Virus record (IMG/VR): IMGVR_UViG_3300022752_000007
Location: 1-34,663 of that record
Length of the DNA stretch: 34,663 nt
Reading direction: 5' to 3' (one strand)
From: a virus
This document shows positions 1,688-34,106 of the stretch, piece after piece. The notes below the pieces were generated by a model that had not been told where the DNA came from, made no database searches, and saw only the letters and a list, made by a program, of their open reading frames with translations. Within the stretch, counting starts at the first letter, position 1. Each line of letters opens with the position of its first letter. Position numbers and translations under genes: made by a program.

Positions 1688-3670
1688 ATGGCAAAAACCA
1701 ACGAAAACAAAAAGCCGCAACCTTCAAGGGTGGCGGCTGCGCTGCGTTATTTGGAGGACATGGGCCAAAGGTTAACTAGTCTTGATGCCCCTCGAGACGA
1801 GAGCGTTGCTGACATTGCCGCAGACATCGCGCTCGGATTTACCCCGTTGCAATACCCGCAGGCCGCGAGAGATTTTGAAAGAGCGCGCCGCGAGAACGAC
1901 CCGTTGGGAATGGGGCTGGCAACTTTGGCCGCAATTCCTGTTGTAGGCGGCGTAGCAAAAGCCGCTGGAAAAGCAAGAAAAGGGTCTGACATTGCCGAGG
2001 CGCTTGTAACACGGGCCAAACGCAGAGTTGGGACAACTGGGCAATATGTAGGAGCGCCGCCGGGGGTTGATTCTCCGCAAAAACTTGGCGCAATGGTCAA
2101 CAATTATGTAAACGCCATGCAGGAAGGACTGCCGGGGCGCAATTTTTATGTTGATAGCAGCAAGGATGTATTCGCAAGAACAGGGAACAATCCAATCGAA
2201 GCCGATTTATTTAATCAAAACCTTGCTGCGTTAAGTCGTGCAAACAATGTCGCCGGTAATACGGCAATGTCTGCAAAAGGGCATATCCAAGCCGTGACGG
2301 GTGAGCCAGTTCTTACGGGTAGATTCCCCTCGAGAGACAGCCCTCCCTTGCAAGCAATGTATGACGCTGGTCAAGCAGATTATCTCGGGCATAAGCGTGA
2401 CCCGTTTGCCACGCAACTAGGCGTTGCATATGCGCCGGAACGGATTGGCCGCGGCGTTAACGATATGCACGAAGCGGAATTGATGGGGTATCCATCAGGC
2501 GCTGTTGGTGGCGCGACCCAGCACGCATTTATGGACGAAATTCGACAACGCGCAATTGAGCGCGCAAACCGTGAAAAGTTAGGCGGTTTCAGCGATTGGA
2601 ACACCGGCAACGCACAAGCGGCGGCATGGTCGGGAAACAAAATTAGGCGCGGCGATATTTTGCCGGGAGAAGCGGCGCGGTCGTATGCCGACTATTTGCC
2701 CCTGCAAGAGGCTAATGCAACCTACGAGGCGGTCAGTTCGCCGGCGACGGGCCATCTGCAAGGATTGCTGAACGCGCCATTTGACACGCGGTCGGCTTAT
2801 ACCGCGGATGTTCGTGGTTCATGGAACACCAGCCCGTCAGGTCGCGATATAGGCTACACGGCGGCTAGAATGTTGCCGGGAGAAACTGTTAACACCGTAG
2901 GCAGATTTAAAGACACCGCCAACCCTGCAATGGTGGCGCGTCCCGTAACCGGAACCTACACCACGGCAGACAAATCTCGCGCCCTAACGCCGGGGTCTGT
3001 GCAAGCACTAAACGCAGTAGAAGCGGCCCGAGCGTATTTTGATGTTCAAGAGGCTGGCGCATGGCACAAGTTACTGCCTGCAAAGTCAGCCGCAGATTAC
3101 TCTGGAGCATCCATTGACTTGGGTAAAAACATGACTCAAGCGGACATGGAGCGTATTGCTCCTCTGTTTGAGCAACGAGGTTATTACCTTGCAAGTGCGC
3201 CAAACGGCATAACAATTCTTGCAAACGAAGGCACAGCGCAGGGTGAAAAGTTTGCGAAAGAAGTGCGTGATATCGTAAAGAAAAACCCAGAGGCGTTTGG
3301 CAAAACAGAAATTGACTTTGGACGCGCCGAGACTGGATACATTGATTACGGGGACGCTTACCGCAGCAACACTCCGGGTGCGGTTACTGCGCGAATGCTT
3401 CAGATGATGGAACAAGCGCCCATGACGATGAAAAATTTAGATGTAAACCCTGCATATCGAGAAACCGTTGCAGCAAGAAATGCTCGGGACATTGATTACG
3501 CCGCAAAAGGATTTGGCGTTGCTAGAGAAGATGTGATTCGCGCCAGAAACATTTTCAAGGCAGAAGGGTTTGAGGGTTTGAGGAAAGCCGCAAAAGCGGG
3601 AATTGTTCCTGCGGTACTTGCAACATTTGGCGCACAGCAAATGCTTTCGGAAAACGAGGAAAAAAGATGA
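1688..3670 (+). CDS. large putative virion-associated protein upstream of the terminase genes
   Basis: A 660-aa protein of no certain family. The N-terminus has a pattern I associate with large virion or ejected proteins of environmental podoviruses: ADIALGFTPLQYPQAARDFE followed by an apolar Gly/Ala stretch (IPVVGGVAKAAGKA, about residues 87-100). The middle is rich in Asn, Gly and Tyr and looks soluble. The extreme C-terminus has another apolar stretch (AGIVPAVLATFGAQQML) and a charged tail. No protease or nuclease motif is evident. Codon use is more A/T-rich in third positions (AAA, TTT, GTT) than in the neighbouring terminase and portal genes, suggesting a different history. Its stop overlaps the next ATG (ATGA). 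A DNA-ejection or internal capsid role is inference. Confidence 0.6.
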   Translation: MAKTNENKKPQPSRVAAALRYLEDMGQRLTSLDAPRDESVADIAADIALGFTPLQYPQAARDFERARRENDPLGMGLATLAAIPVVGGVAKAAGKARKGSDIAEALVTRAKRRVGTTGQYVGAPPGVDSPQKLGAMVNNYVNAMQEGLPGRNFYVDSSKDVFARTGNNPIEADLFNQNLAALSRANNVAGNTAMSAKGHIQAVTGEPVLTGRFPSRDSPPLQAMYDAGQADYLGHKRDPFATQLGVAYAPERIGRGVNDMHEAELMGYPSGAVGGATQHAFMDEIRQRAIERANREKLGGFSDWNTGNAQAAAWSGNKIRRGDILPGEAARSYADYLPLQEANATYEAVSSPATGHLQGLLNAPFDTRSAYTADVRGSWNTSPSGRDIGYTAARMLPGETVNTVGRFKDTANPAMVARPVTGTYTTADKSRALTPGSVQALNAVEAARAYFDVQEAGAWHKLLPAKSAADYSGASIDLGKNMTQADMERIAPLFEQRGYYLASAPNGITILANEGTAQGEKFAKEVRDIVKKNPEAFGKTEIDFGRAETGYIDYGDAYRSNTPGAVTARMLQMMEQAPMTMKNLDVNPAYRETVAARNARDIDYAAKGFGVAREDVIRARNIFKAEGFEGLRKAAKAGIVPAVLATFGAQQMLSENEEKR

Positions 3671-28155: not shown

Positions 28156-28321
28156 AGTTTGCAAAAACTGTGTGTTTTGTTGCCCGTGGAACGGCGAGGG
28201 ATGGGGCTGCGGTCATGCTACGGTAAACGGGTTGCTTGATAACATTTGCCGCTGCGACGGCAAACATTTCGTGCAATTTAAACCGTTTAAAATGGCGAGG
28301 GTGGATTCGAACCACCGTTAG
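28115..28321 (+). CDS. 68-aa Cys-rich, putative zinc-binding protein
   Basis: ATG 28115 lies inside the metallophosphoesterase gene and the frame runs to TAG 28319-28321. Seven Cys and a His are arranged as CKNCVFCC, GWGCGH and CRCDGKH, like a small zinc-ribbon protein. No strong ribosome site is visible. The last nine codons read through the tRNA-Gln gene on the opposite strand, which makes the extreme C-terminus suspicious; the Cys cluster upstream still argues for a real protein. Confidence 0.5.
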   Translation: MERTTSSFSDDRPEVCKNCVFCCPWNGEGWGCGHATVNGLLDNICRCDGKHFVQFKPFKMARVDSNHR

Positions 28322-28363
28322 CGGAGTCAAAGTCCGCTGTCCTGCCGCCTAGACGACTCGCCA
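28293..28363 (-). tRNA. tRNA-Gln(UUG)
   Basis: On the minus strand 71 nt fold into a complete cloverleaf: acceptor TGGCGAG/CTCGCCA (7 bp, starting with the U1-A72 pair typical of tRNA-Gln), D-arm GTCT/GGAC, anticodon arm GCGGA/TCCGC with loop CTTTGAC (anticodon TTG), a 4-nt variable loop, and T-arm GGTGG/CCACC with loop TTCGAAT. The CCA end is not encoded; the next base is T. It is the only tRNA gene found and lies at the 3' end of the leftward early block. Confidence 0.93.
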
Positions 28364-32210: not shown

Positions 32211-32239
32211 TAGGTTAACACAGGTTACGGGTATGTCAA
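32211..32239 (-). promoter_or_regulatory. leftward early promoter
   Basis: On the minus strand, TTGACA (perfect -35, plus-strand 32239-32234) is followed 16-17 nt later by TAACCT/AACCTA as a weak -10 near 32217-32211. It lies about 40 bp upstream of the first leftward gene (ATG 32173) and would drive the recombination block. Confidence 0.6.
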
Positions 32240-32242
32240 CAC
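32214..32242 (+). promoter_or_regulatory. operator-like direct repeats between divergent promoters
   Basis: GTTAACAC (32214-32221) and GTCAACAC (32235-32242) start exactly 21 bp apart, two helical turns, so a protein could bind both on one DNA face. The second overlaps the leftward -35. A Cro-like protein encoded next door is the likely binder. Confidence 0.45.
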
Positions 32243-32247
32243 CCCCC

Positions 32248-32275
32248 TTGAAATATTTTTCACGCCCGTTAACTT
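32248..32275 (+). promoter_or_regulatory. rightward early promoter (cro side)
   Basis: TTGAAA (32248-32253), a 16-nt spacer and TAACTT (32270-32275). The start point would fall about 32282, only 2 nt before the cro ATG at 32284, and there is no Shine-Dalgarno sequence, so the cro message would be leaderless or nearly so. The -10 match is weak. Confidence 0.4.
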
Positions 32276-32283
32276 ACCGCTTC

Positions 32284-32493
32284 ATGGACATCCAAGACGC
32301 CCTCGCAGTCGCAGGTAGCAAAGCCGCCCTCGCCCGTAAACTTGGGGTGTCCCGCCCTGCCGTCAGCAGGTGGGTCAAGGCAGGGAAACTACCTGCCATG
32401 CGCGTATGGCAATGGAAGGCTCTAGAAGCCGTCACCCCGCCGATTACAGCCGATTCTACGCCTACCCCCGGCCGACCCCTTCCCCGGCTGTAA
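32284..32493 (+). CDS. cro: Cro-like helix-turn-helix regulator
   Basis: A 69-aa protein: residues 1-45 contain MDIQDALAVAGSKAALARKL then GVSRPAVSRWVKAGKLPAMR, a textbook Cro/YdaS-like helix-turn-helix with the recognition helix RPAVSRWVK. The C-terminal 25 residues are Pro-rich and probably unstructured. The gene is divergent from the leftward early block, as cro and its partner promoter are in lambdoid phages, and probably binds the 32214-32242 repeats. No CI-type repressor gene or integrase was found, so control of a lytic cascade rather than lysogeny is the simpler reading. Confidence 0.85.
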   Translation: MDIQDALAVAGSKAALARKLGVSRPAVSRWVKAGKLPAMRVWQWKALEAVTPPITADSTPTPGRPLPRL

Positions 32494-32559
32494 AGCCGCC
32501 AGAATCTCTCTGGTGCGGGTTCCTGTGCGATTAAACGTTGTAAGGCTTTTTAAGCATCT

Positions 32560-32577
32560 GCGTCTTTTGCGTCTTTT
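32560..32577 (+). repeat. two tandem 9-bp repeats (GCGTCTTTT)
   Basis: GCGTCTTTT occurs twice in direct tandem. With the 9-bp repeats at 32631-32657 it forms an iteron-like setting. Confidence 0.7.
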
Positions 32578-32589
32578 ACCTAGTCCCCC

Positions 32590-32610: not shown

Positions 32611-32630
32611 TAACGGTACTCTTAGGAAAA

Positions 32631-32657
32631 AGCCGCAGAAGCCGCAGAAACCTCAGA
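32631..32657 (+). repeat. three 9-bp iteron-like repeats (ARCCKCAGA)
   Basis: AGCCGCAGA, AGCCGCAGA and AACCTCAGA follow each other directly. Short tandem repeats next to a replication-type gene (33582) are typical of initiator binding sites. Confidence 0.6.
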
Positions 32658-32666
32658 AACGACAAA

Positions 32667-32681
32667 CCCCCTGAACGGGGG
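32667..32681 (+). terminator. CCCCC/GGGGG hairpin, possible terminator
   Basis: A 5-bp G/C stem with loop TGAAC, preceded by AAA and followed by CTTG. No real U-run follows, so termination would be weak; it may only be a structural element. Confidence 0.3.
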
Positions 32682-32779
32682 CTTGACGCGGCAGGGGGGC
32701 TGCCTATACGCTTGCGAGGCTATTCGAGCGTGATGGTTAATCTACACGGCTGTTCTAGTCGTGTCAAACACCCCAGCAC

Positions 32780-32860
32780 GCAGCCCCTCGACATGGGTTA
32801 AATCTGTCGGCAGCGGGGCCGGTGCAACTCCGGTTGGCGTAAGCCACGACCTCGGGCTGC
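32780..32860 (+). ncRNA. candidate cloverleaf-like structured RNA, about 81 nt
   Basis: A perfect 7-bp closing stem (GCAGCCC 32780-32786 with GGGCTGC 32854-32860) encloses three hairpins: CGACA/TGTCG with an 11-nt loop (32789-32809), CCGG/CCGG with loop TGCAACT (32819-32833), and TGGC/GCCA capped by a GTAA tetraloop (32835-32846). An upstream GGGGCTGC (32696-32703) can take over GCAGCCCC (32780-32787), so two folds compete. It is not a tRNA on either strand. Strand and function are inferred. Confidence 0.45.
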
Positions 32861-32876
32861 TTAAATCGCCGGGGCG

Positions 32877-32906
32877 GGTTATATCGACGGGTATACGGGC
32901 ATAACC
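32877..32906 (+). other. GGTTAT/ATAACC inverted repeat
   Basis: A 6-bp inverted repeat (32877-32882 with 32901-32906) flanks an 18-nt loop containing GGGTATACGG. It lies just downstream of the structured RNA candidate and may belong to the same element or be a protein-binding site. Confidence 0.4.
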
Positions 32907-32980
32907 GGAACCTCTCGACATCCCTACATGATGTGGGGGTTAGGGGGGTTTTCTCTGGGTTCCGAGCATAGGGGTGAAGA

Positions 32981-33514
32981 ATGGGGAATCATACTCATAG
33001 AGTCATCTTGACCTCTGCATATCTTCGAGCCGTGCGCGGTCAAAATCTGTCGAAAGGCGAATCGCCAATCAAACTTGCCGTGCAATGGTTGCAGCAAATG
33101 CAAGGCACTCGGCAAAAAAATCTTGATGAAAGTGATGCAAGTTATTTAGATGCACACAAACAAGTGATGCGGGAAACCACCAGAAAAGCCGTTAAAACGC
33201 CGAAAAAAAGAACACAGCAAAAATCAACAAGAATTAAAAAAAGAAAATTTGATTTTCGCGGAACTTCTGATTTTCTTGAAACATATGAGTGGCGCAAACT
33301 GCGGATGCAGGTGCTTTTGAGATACGGCCCTCGGTGTATGTGTTGCGGTGCAACGCCGCAGACCGGGGCGGTGATAAATGTTGACCACATCAAACCTCGC
33401 GCAACCCATCCAGAACTTGCGCTTGATGCCGAAAACCTGCAAATCCTTTGCAATTCCTGCAATCACGGCAAAGGCAATTGGGACACTACGGATTGGAGGC
33501 CCAAACCAGCCTAA
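32981..33514 (+). CDS. HNH endonuclease with basic N-terminal domain
   Basis: A 177-aa protein. The C-terminal domain (about 115-170) is a standard zinc-bound HNH nuclease: RCMCCGATPQ, VINVDHIKPRATHP (Asp135-His136), ENLQILCNSCNHGKGN with paired Cys and His162. The N-terminal 90 residues are helical and very basic (KAVKTPKKRTQQKSTRIKKR), probably binding DNA. TYEWRKLRMQVLLRYG is the usual lead-in to phage HNH domains. The gene is A/T-rich against its neighbours, suggesting recent acquisition. It lies after the structured intergenic region and before the replication-type gene, so it may act in replication or be a mobile endonuclease. Confidence 0.88.
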   Translation: MGNHTHRVILTSAYLRAVRGQNLSKGESPIKLAVQWLQQMQGTRQKNLDESDASYLDAHKQVMRETTRKAVKTPKKRTQQKSTRIKKRKFDFRGTSDFLETYEWRKLRMQVLLRYGPRCMCCGATPQTGAVINVDHIKPRATHPELALDAENLQILCNSCNHGKGNWDTTDWRPKPA

Positions 33515-33581: not shown

Positions 33582-34106
33582 ATGCACGAACTAGACGAAG
33601 CCGCATGGGAGCGATGGGTTGCCTACCGCAAGGCCATTCGCAAGCCCATAAAGGAAGTCAGCGAACACGCGATGAAACTCAAACTGTCGCGCTTTGGCGC
33701 TGACCAAGATGCCGTAGTCGAGCAGTCCATTGCTAACCAGTATCAGGGGCTGTTCGAGTTGAAGAAGTCCGCACCCCGCCCCGGCGAGAAGGTCGAGAAG
33801 ACCGATAAGCAGAAAGCCGCCGACATTTCTCGTCACGCTGAACAAGATGCGTGGAACGCGAAGGGCTGGAACACGCAGGAGCCGACCCCGCTAAACCGGC
33901 TCAAGTTGTGTGAGGCATATCTTGCTCGATTAACCATCAGCCCTGATGCGGATGCGATGGAGCGTCTGAAGGACTCAACCGCCGCCGCGTTGCGGTCAGC
34001 GGATGCAGCCGAGGTGCTGGGTCACCCGCACCTGATGTCGATGGTTCGCCAACTTTTTGGTGAACGCGGTCTGAACAAACTCAAAAAGCGAGAGGTGCAA
34101 TCGTGA
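33582..34106 (+). CDS. putative replication-associated protein
   Basis: A 174-aa protein. The N-terminal segment AWERWVAYRKAIRKPIKEVS, then QDAVVEQSIANQYQGLFELK, is a motif I know from the C-terminal ends of phage replication initiators, where the IANQYQGLF element is very common; here it is at the N-terminus with no initiator domain in front. The rest is charged and helical, with RLKLCEAYLARLTISPDADA. AAAGAGG at 33570-33576 is the ribosome site. Its place after the repeat-rich gap suggests a replisome-organising or helicase-loading role, which is inference. Confidence 0.6.
   Translation: MHELDEAAWERWVAYRKAIRKPIKEVSEHAMKLKLSRFGADQDAVVEQSIANQYQGLFELKKSAPRPGEKVEKTDKQKAADISRHAEQDAWNAKGWNTQEPTPLNRLKLCEAYLARLTISPDADAMERLKDSTAAALRSADAAEVLGHPHLMSMVRQLFGERGLNKLKKREVQS

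Follow-up and report, generated by a model that had tools for sequence, protein, structure and literature searches.

The oop RNA of phage lambda is approximately 77 nt long, and in ColE1 a short three-hairpin RNA (RNA I) faces a structured sense RNA (RNA II). In lambda, replication is tuned by the leftward promoter pO, which opposes pR at gene O (PMC3985674), and the early rightward operon of phage HK022 contains, past its first promoter, the put RNA, which is approximately 70 nt long and forms two stem-loops (PMC9378689). Here we analyze a conserved non-coding element of 319 bp in a viral DNA of 34,663 nt (IMG/VR record IMGVR_UViG_3300022752_000007; hereafter, the window) that combines a predicted oop-like RNA on the minus strand with a putative sense RNA containing tandem pseudoknots (Table 1).

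The initial annotation of this locus noticed the middle part of the element and placed it in a gap flanked by cro and an HNH gene; the gap is confirmed, its upstream neighbour being a cro-like HTH gene, and the gene after the HNH gene encodes an O-like replication protein. Of the 346 positions in the O-like profile, this protein aligns only to 222-317, and its N-terminal origin-binding part seems to be missing. The O-like gene of one relative, L525, looks even shorter. The HNH protein of the window, used as a query, retrieved 80 viral loci, and the 20 of these that were aligned to the window have in common with it approximately 320 nt of non-coding DNA with a sharp start at 32656 and a sharp end at 32974. 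Pattern scans with parts of the element yielded further relatives, so that approximately 60 distinct ones were found, and in most loci the nhmmer profile matches span model position 2 to about 307. Among the 59 distinct loci from which synteny was counted, a cro-like gene is located upstream in 50 of the 52 and an O-like gene downstream in 40 of the 41 that have enough flanking sequence; the element is therefore tied to this position and not to the HNH gene. The relatives are environmental phages represented by fragmentary metagenomic contigs. A blastn search against named phages and plasmids detected no homologue of the element, a genome scan with GNNTATACGGGCATARNC, which proved too loose, returned 120 bacterial stretches with no real element among them, and a scan with the pattern GGCTGCTTAAATNGC gave no new element.

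Several other features of the surrounding DNA can be mentioned. Between cro and the element, the window contains a 26-nt imperfect inverted repeat (32557-32582 and 32623-32648) with the tandem words TGCGTCTTT (twice) and AAGCCGCAG (twice), and L356, L358 and L343 have similar words on the upstream side of the element. The change of GC skew near 32 kb coincides with a change of gene orientation and does not locate an origin. A tRNA-Gln (TTG) gene is present on the minus strand at 28292-28363.

Table 1. Features of the conserved element and its neighbouring genes, in window coordinates
Feature	Coordinates	Strand	Description
Cro/YdaS-like HTH regulator	32233-32493	+	Upstream neighbour; PF15943, E 2.8e-09; PF14549, E 1.4e-06 (just under cutoff)
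Whole conserved element (module)	32656-32974	.	Sharp ends in nhmmer profile search
Predicted oop-like RNA	32656-32733	-	About 78 nt; hairpin H1, hairpin H2, intrinsic terminator; 5' end predicted from promoter
Intrinsic terminator	32663-32685	-	Stem-loop CAAGCCCCCGTTCAGGGGGTTTG, tail continues TCGTTT; 9 pairs
Hairpin H2/P2	32690-32704	-	Dyad GGCAG..CTGCC; fills spacer of plus promoter-like site; dyads with different letters in most lineages
Hairpin H1/P3	32708-32731	-	ACGCT..AGCGT
Plus promoter-like site	32683-32712	+	TTGACG-N18-TACGCT; below threshold of generic scan
Minus promoter-like site	32739-32767	-	TTGACA-N17-TAGATT; faces plus site; 10/12 consensus
Predicted sense RNA	32719-32974	+	About 250 nt; two tandem H-type pseudoknots; start predicted from promoter-like site
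Hairpin P4	32744-32764	+	ACACGGC-UGUUCUA-GUCGUGU; first hairpin of plus RNA; fills minus-site spacer; double changes in most pairs
Pseudoknot 1	32782-32809	+	S1 AGCCC 32782-32786 x GGGTT 32795-32799, crossing P5; loop AAATC
P5 of pseudoknot 1	32789-32793 x 32805-32809	+	CGACA x TGTCG
Pseudoknot 2	32810-32874	+	S3 GCAGC 32810-32814 x GCTGC 32856-32860, crossing P7
P7 of pseudoknot 2	32850-32855 x 32869-32874	+	CCTCGG x CCGGGG
3' part	32877-32974	+	P8 GGTTAT..ATAACC 32877-32906; conserved TATACGGGCA
3' part, outer stem	32907-32912 / 32958-32963	+	GGAACC / GGTTCC
3' part, G-rich stretch	32935-32948	+	GGGGGTTAGGGGGG; end of the 3' part CCGAGCATAGGGG
HNH endonuclease	32981-33514	+	Just past element, outside RNA; optional in relatives; PF01844, E 2e-08
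Replication O-like protein	33582-34106	+	Downstream neighbour; phrog_678, E 4.4e-14

Across the approximately 320 nt, 49 distinct homologues can be aligned, a number that does not equal independent events given the many near-identical sequences per lineage; their middle part comes in three kinds, namely A (which includes the window), B and C, along with some outliers. The pseudoknots were first read by hand from these aligned sequences and then counted formally. In pseudoknot 1, 96.4% of cells are paired and the covariation score is 0.653, compared with 0.238 for shuffled sequences and at most 0.125 when the pairing is slid; in this count, two C-G pairs of S1 were fixed by the extraction, so that only the other S1 pairs bear weight, and the type C loci, which keep P5 but only part of S1, were left out. 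The partners in S1 covary in the relatives (GTTCC/GGAAC, GTACC/GGTAC, GTCC/GGAC), as do those in P5 (GGTA/TACC, AACA/TGTT, GTCA/TGAC, ACCA/TGGT, ATCA/TGAT). Pseudoknot 2, between the helices of which the hairpins 32819-32833 and 32835-32846 are located, is 100% paired with a covariation score of 0.349 versus 0.189 for shuffled sequences, and S3 appears as CCAGC/GCTGG or CAAGC/GCTTG in relatives and as GCGG/CCGC or GCGA/TCGC in type B. Seven sequences that were found after the model had been built have fully paired P5, S3 and P7 and four to five of the five S1 pairs, and the later-found sequences include forms of P7 that had not been seen before (CCTGAG/CTCAGG, TGTCGG/CCGGCA). Read on the plus strand, the wobble pairs of P7 and S3 are always G-T rather than A-C, and the right part therefore behaves as a plus-strand RNA; likewise, the wobbles of P4, which would be C-A in the minus-strand letters, are G-T on the plus strand in most lineages. 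The right part folds better on the plus strand in eight of the nine sequences tested, and all 49 elements fold more stably on this strand, a preference to which base composition alone contributes. The comparative data thus make the pseudoknot structure well supported.

In the same middle part, the initial annotation proposed a cloverleaf closed by a 7-bp stem around three hairpins, together with an upstream 8-bp pairing that would compete with the closing stem. All these pairings do exist in the window, namely GCAGCCC (32780-32786) with GGGCTGC (32854-32860), the hairpins at 32789-32809, 32819-32833 (CCGG) and 32835-32846 (GTAA loop), and GGGGCTGC (32696-32703) with GCAGCCCC (32780-32787); short exact inverted repeats are cheap here, with 20 inverted pairs listed in 500 bases. 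Among the homologues, the closing stem is intact by alignment column in only 4 of 45 sequences (two more have it otherwise whole with G-U pairs) and fails also in L334, L412, L415 and L382, and the competing stem is intact in only 4 of 37. The conserved partner of GGGCTGC is the second copy of GCAGC (32810-32814) and not 32780-32786, and GGGGCTGC belongs to a hairpin of the left region that fits the minus-strand RNA better. The general notion of a structured RNA with mutually exclusive or crossing pairings thus stands, whereas the particular stems do not. The compensatory changes in homologous phage gaps that were suggested as a check are indeed observed: the 32789-32809 hairpin is real, with compensated changes in its stem, and the CCGG hairpin keeps a UGCAAYU loop in type C with the stem replaced by GUGGG/CCCAC. 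Taken as a whole, the aligned region is far from chance.

No Rfam family accounts for these structures. At the gathering score, the whole window matches no Rfam family except one tRNA, and at E values up to 5 the gap yields no meaningful match; sul1, mir-1258 and Transposase-2 appeared as meaningless below-threshold matches when the window and two relatives were scanned. By these searches, the tandem-pseudoknot plus-strand RNA is absent from Rfam and the predicted sense RNA is new. Two further pairings were considered and rejected: a conserved long-range stem UUGAC/GUCAA, which is lost without compensation in L307 and L026 (TTTAC), and a pairing of the C-rich H2 loop with GGGGGTTAGGGGGG, which is not universal among the relatives. 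The RNAalifold consensus, which cannot show pseudoknots, placed a CCCC/GGGG pairing instead.

The left part of the element is organized differently. In a blind scan, the nine-pair minus-strand terminator (32685-32663) and the minus promoter with 10 of 12 consensus letters (32767-32739) rank at the top. The terminator stem changes with compensation in the relatives (CCCTCC/GGAGGG, CCCACC/GGTGGG, CCCCGCC/GGCGGGG), the predicted minus RNA is 74-84 nt long in nearly all of them, and the eight minus RNAs that were folded all adopt the order hairpin, hairpin, terminator. The plus site conforms to TT(G/T)NNN-N17/18-TANNNT in each of the 58 modules, although its spacer takes 35 different forms; variants such as TTTACT..TATGAT (L026) and TTGCGT..TATTGT (L538) are included. 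A minus site of the form TTGACN-N16/17/18-NANNNT is also found in 58 of 58 modules, a count that is less strict than that for the plus site because three spacings were allowed in the search for the minus -10 box. Both promoter spacers are dyads the letters of which change with compensation while the spacing is kept. Conserved linkers of the minus RNA alone could mimic the -35 and -10 boxes of the plus site. The left part does not favour the same strand throughout: measured against shuffled sequences, it folds better on the minus strand in six of nine cases tested, including the window, with one tie, and the left parts of L347 and L307 fold better on the plus strand.

Not all loci follow the cro-O arrangement. 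L334 carries a diverged copy of the pseudoknot body, devoid of the left module and with very AT-rich DNA after it, just upstream of a primase/helicase gene (phrog_239, E 7e-77) and on the opposite strand from it; the module is therefore not simply the leader of that gene, with the proviso that, away from O, the pseudoknot body has a clear context in this single contig only. Among the relatives of the L334 helicase, L536, L534 and L538 carry at the same place the left module joined to another RNA body, and L533, L535 and L539 have no element there (only 113 nt are available upstream in L539), and therefore the module is not essential in this position. In the podovirus MW202691, the synteny is the same and the left module is similar, and only the G-rich 3' end is in common. 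Together with the L536-type loci, this implies that the left module and the RNA body are exchangeable separately and that the module can be gained or lost. The second RNA body (L536, positions 2450-3010, minus strand; L534; L538), which follows the same 5' module, itself looks structured, and the L536 type gives a sub-threshold Rfam match to Transposase-2 (19.1 bits, cutoff 42.7).

The downstream edge of the element is often occupied by endonuclease genes. In one set of loci, HNH-type ORFs, or their N-terminal domain alone, start 5-7 nt beyond the element (the count did not separate the two forms, and a protein search gave a full HNH match for most of the set), DUF559/Vsr-like ORFs occupy the same slot in a second set, and a third set has neither. 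In addition, an HNH-like ORF was read by eye behind the left module and the different RNA body of L534. ORFs of approximately 73 aa that resemble the N-terminal domain of the window HNH protein stand alone in the endonuclease place in L090, L091 and L347, and the DUF559/Vsr-like nuclease ORFs are those of L087, L088, L117, L525 and L526. The DUF559/Vsr-like proteins are likely to represent a second homing endonuclease family at one site.

The pseudoknots, the plus-strand character of the right part, the conserved promoter-like sites, the terminator and the synteny are all apparent in the sequences themselves, whereas the production of the two RNAs, their action on replication and the mode of this action are what we infer. 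The replication genes that adjoin the element in both contexts (O-like and primase/helicase of phrog_239), the AT-rich tract and the precedent of lambda pO lead us to favour replication control, and we tentatively propose a replication-linked convergent RNA pair in which mutual exclusion of the two promoters would tune phage replication. Specifically, two facing sigma-70-type promoters would have their -10 boxes approximately 27 bp apart, and this facing arrangement is the only competition suggested by the data. The leftward promoter would yield the RNA of 74-84 nt, which comprises two hairpins followed by a terminator and matches lambda oop in position and direction, and the rightward promoter a 250-nt RNA that starts with P4, continues through the two tandem H-type pseudoknots and has its G-rich end beside an AT-rich tract. 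Given that the spacer of each promoter encodes a hairpin of the opposite transcript, the promoters should exclude each other. The sense transcript would enter the AT-rich tract and there either cause transcriptional activation, as in lambda, or form an R-loop, as in ColE1; it would be restrained by the minus-strand promoter and the short RNA made from it, and the module would thereby tune the initiation or timing of replication. In endonuclease-free loci, the 60 nt past the element are among the most AT-rich (median percentile 0.005), which is weak evidence because intergenic DNA is often AT-rich. A related scheme, which we consider possible but doubtful, is that of a new RNA class in phages, a mobile two-promoter cassette in which the exchangeable pseudoknotted sense RNA would act directly at the replication origin, by DNA opening or priming, under the control of the facing three-hairpin RNA.

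The same observations can be read in other ways. A terminator-ended three-hairpin RNA that faces a structured sense RNA, independent of the strand of the neighbouring gene and with the same 5' module joined to different RNA bodies in different phages, could be part of a free-standing regulatory pair for immunity or copy control, like P4 CI RNA, C4 or ColE1 RNA I/II, the short RNA pairing either with the long RNA of the module or with transcripts of incoming phages. We regard this as somewhat unlikely: with a sense RNA initiated at the predicted promoter, the two RNAs would have only about 15 nt in common, and L347, L096, L026 and others lack the C-rich H2 loop, which leaves no universal seed. 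Among the alternatives, the one best known for structured RNAs of early operons is processive antitermination of the HK022 put type, which needs no protein factor and whereby the nascent pseudoknotted RNA would bind RNA polymerase and ensure read-through of the replication-to-late operon. The element follows cro and heads a long rightward operon, putR lies approximately 270 nt from the PR start (PMC9378689), and endonuclease insertions between the element and O are tolerated, so that the effect need not be exerted at the O start codon. Nevertheless, such a function is unlikely given that the size and fold differ from those of put, that the element is single-copy with the leftward partner absent, that there is no excess of plus-strand terminators downstream, and that the L334 element points away from the primase/helicase gene with no same-strand gene within approximately 500 nt after it.

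An intron-like mobile RNA element carried by homing endonucleases would explain why HNH, DUF559/Vsr-like and further HNH-like ORFs start directly after the RNA in different loci, as well as the presence or absence of the element among relatives with 76-86% identical helicases. However, the element is present in many loci that have no endonuclease, the same two genes almost always flank it, no gene is interrupted, and neither the group I nor the group II intron catalytic core has a match in Rfam, making this explanation quite improbable. The original proposal of a cloverleaf/anti-stem switch acting as a riboswitch or attenuator, derived from the pairings present in the window, is largely refuted by the homologues, where neither stem is conserved; moreover, the element contains no plus-strand terminator and is not always followed by a same-strand gene, and we assign this reading a very low probability. 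Finally, a packaging site (cos/pac) or an operator array might likewise appear as conserved, dyad-rich non-coding DNA next to an HNH gene, and three contigs end at profile positions 297-304. Such a role is hardly credible because the neighbour is a replication gene and not a terminase, the stems show compensated changes and plus-strand G-T pairs, and the other contig ends scatter, with assembly breaks being expected at the edge of a conserved stretch.

The present analysis contributes a family of structured RNAs with tandem pseudoknots that is well supported, missing from Rfam and represented in dozens of environmental phages, and the predicted RNA stands at the entry to the phage replication genes. 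Concrete tests now become feasible of how replication starts in phages without a full O protein and of why homing endonucleases settle at one edge of the element.

Comparison with described systems shows different degrees of similarity. The cobalamin riboswitch (RF00174), the core of which the initial annotation thought to be echoed here, shares only a recurring loop word, GGUGCAAUUCC; the absence of a B12 box noted at the time is borne out, there is no cobalamin gene, and the Rfam covariance search gave no match to this family at the gathering score or at E values up to 5. HEARO and IscB omega-RNA are similar in being structured RNAs directly 5' of an HNH gene, but the HNH protein here is 177 aa long with no RuvC part found, it is absent or replaced by DUF559 in many loci, and neither a link to an IscB-type RuvC-HNH nuclease nor an Rfam match was detected. 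ColE1 RNA I/II resembles the module in that a three-hairpin RNA faces a sense RNA, with a G-rich stretch here beside a possible origin; the differences are the phage setting, the phage's own replication proteins and the small predicted RNA overlap. HK022 put is likewise a structured RNA in an early rightward operon, whereas the RNA described here, at approximately 250 nt with tandem pseudoknots, does not correspond to a two-stem-loop RNA of approximately 70 nt, occurs in a single copy and is also found divergent from a replication gene. The closest counterpart is lambda pO/oop, with which the module shares a short leftward terminator-ended RNA just 5' of O from a promoter convergent to rightward transcription (PMC3985674). 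A leftward promoter-like site 5' of O is present in all 58 modules, and the predicted RNA ends at an intrinsic terminator with a T-rich tail. No cII is seen to the 3' end of which this RNA could be antisense, and in the window it ends approximately 160 nt beyond the stop codon of the cro-like gene. The second facing promoter-like site, the large pseudoknotted sense RNA and the dyads in both spacers distinguish the module from lambda. On the basis of sequence comparison, the best reading is therefore that of a variant of lambda pO/oop with an additional new sense RNA, in which the arrangement takes a far more elaborate form and the promoter spacers double as hairpins of the opposite RNA.
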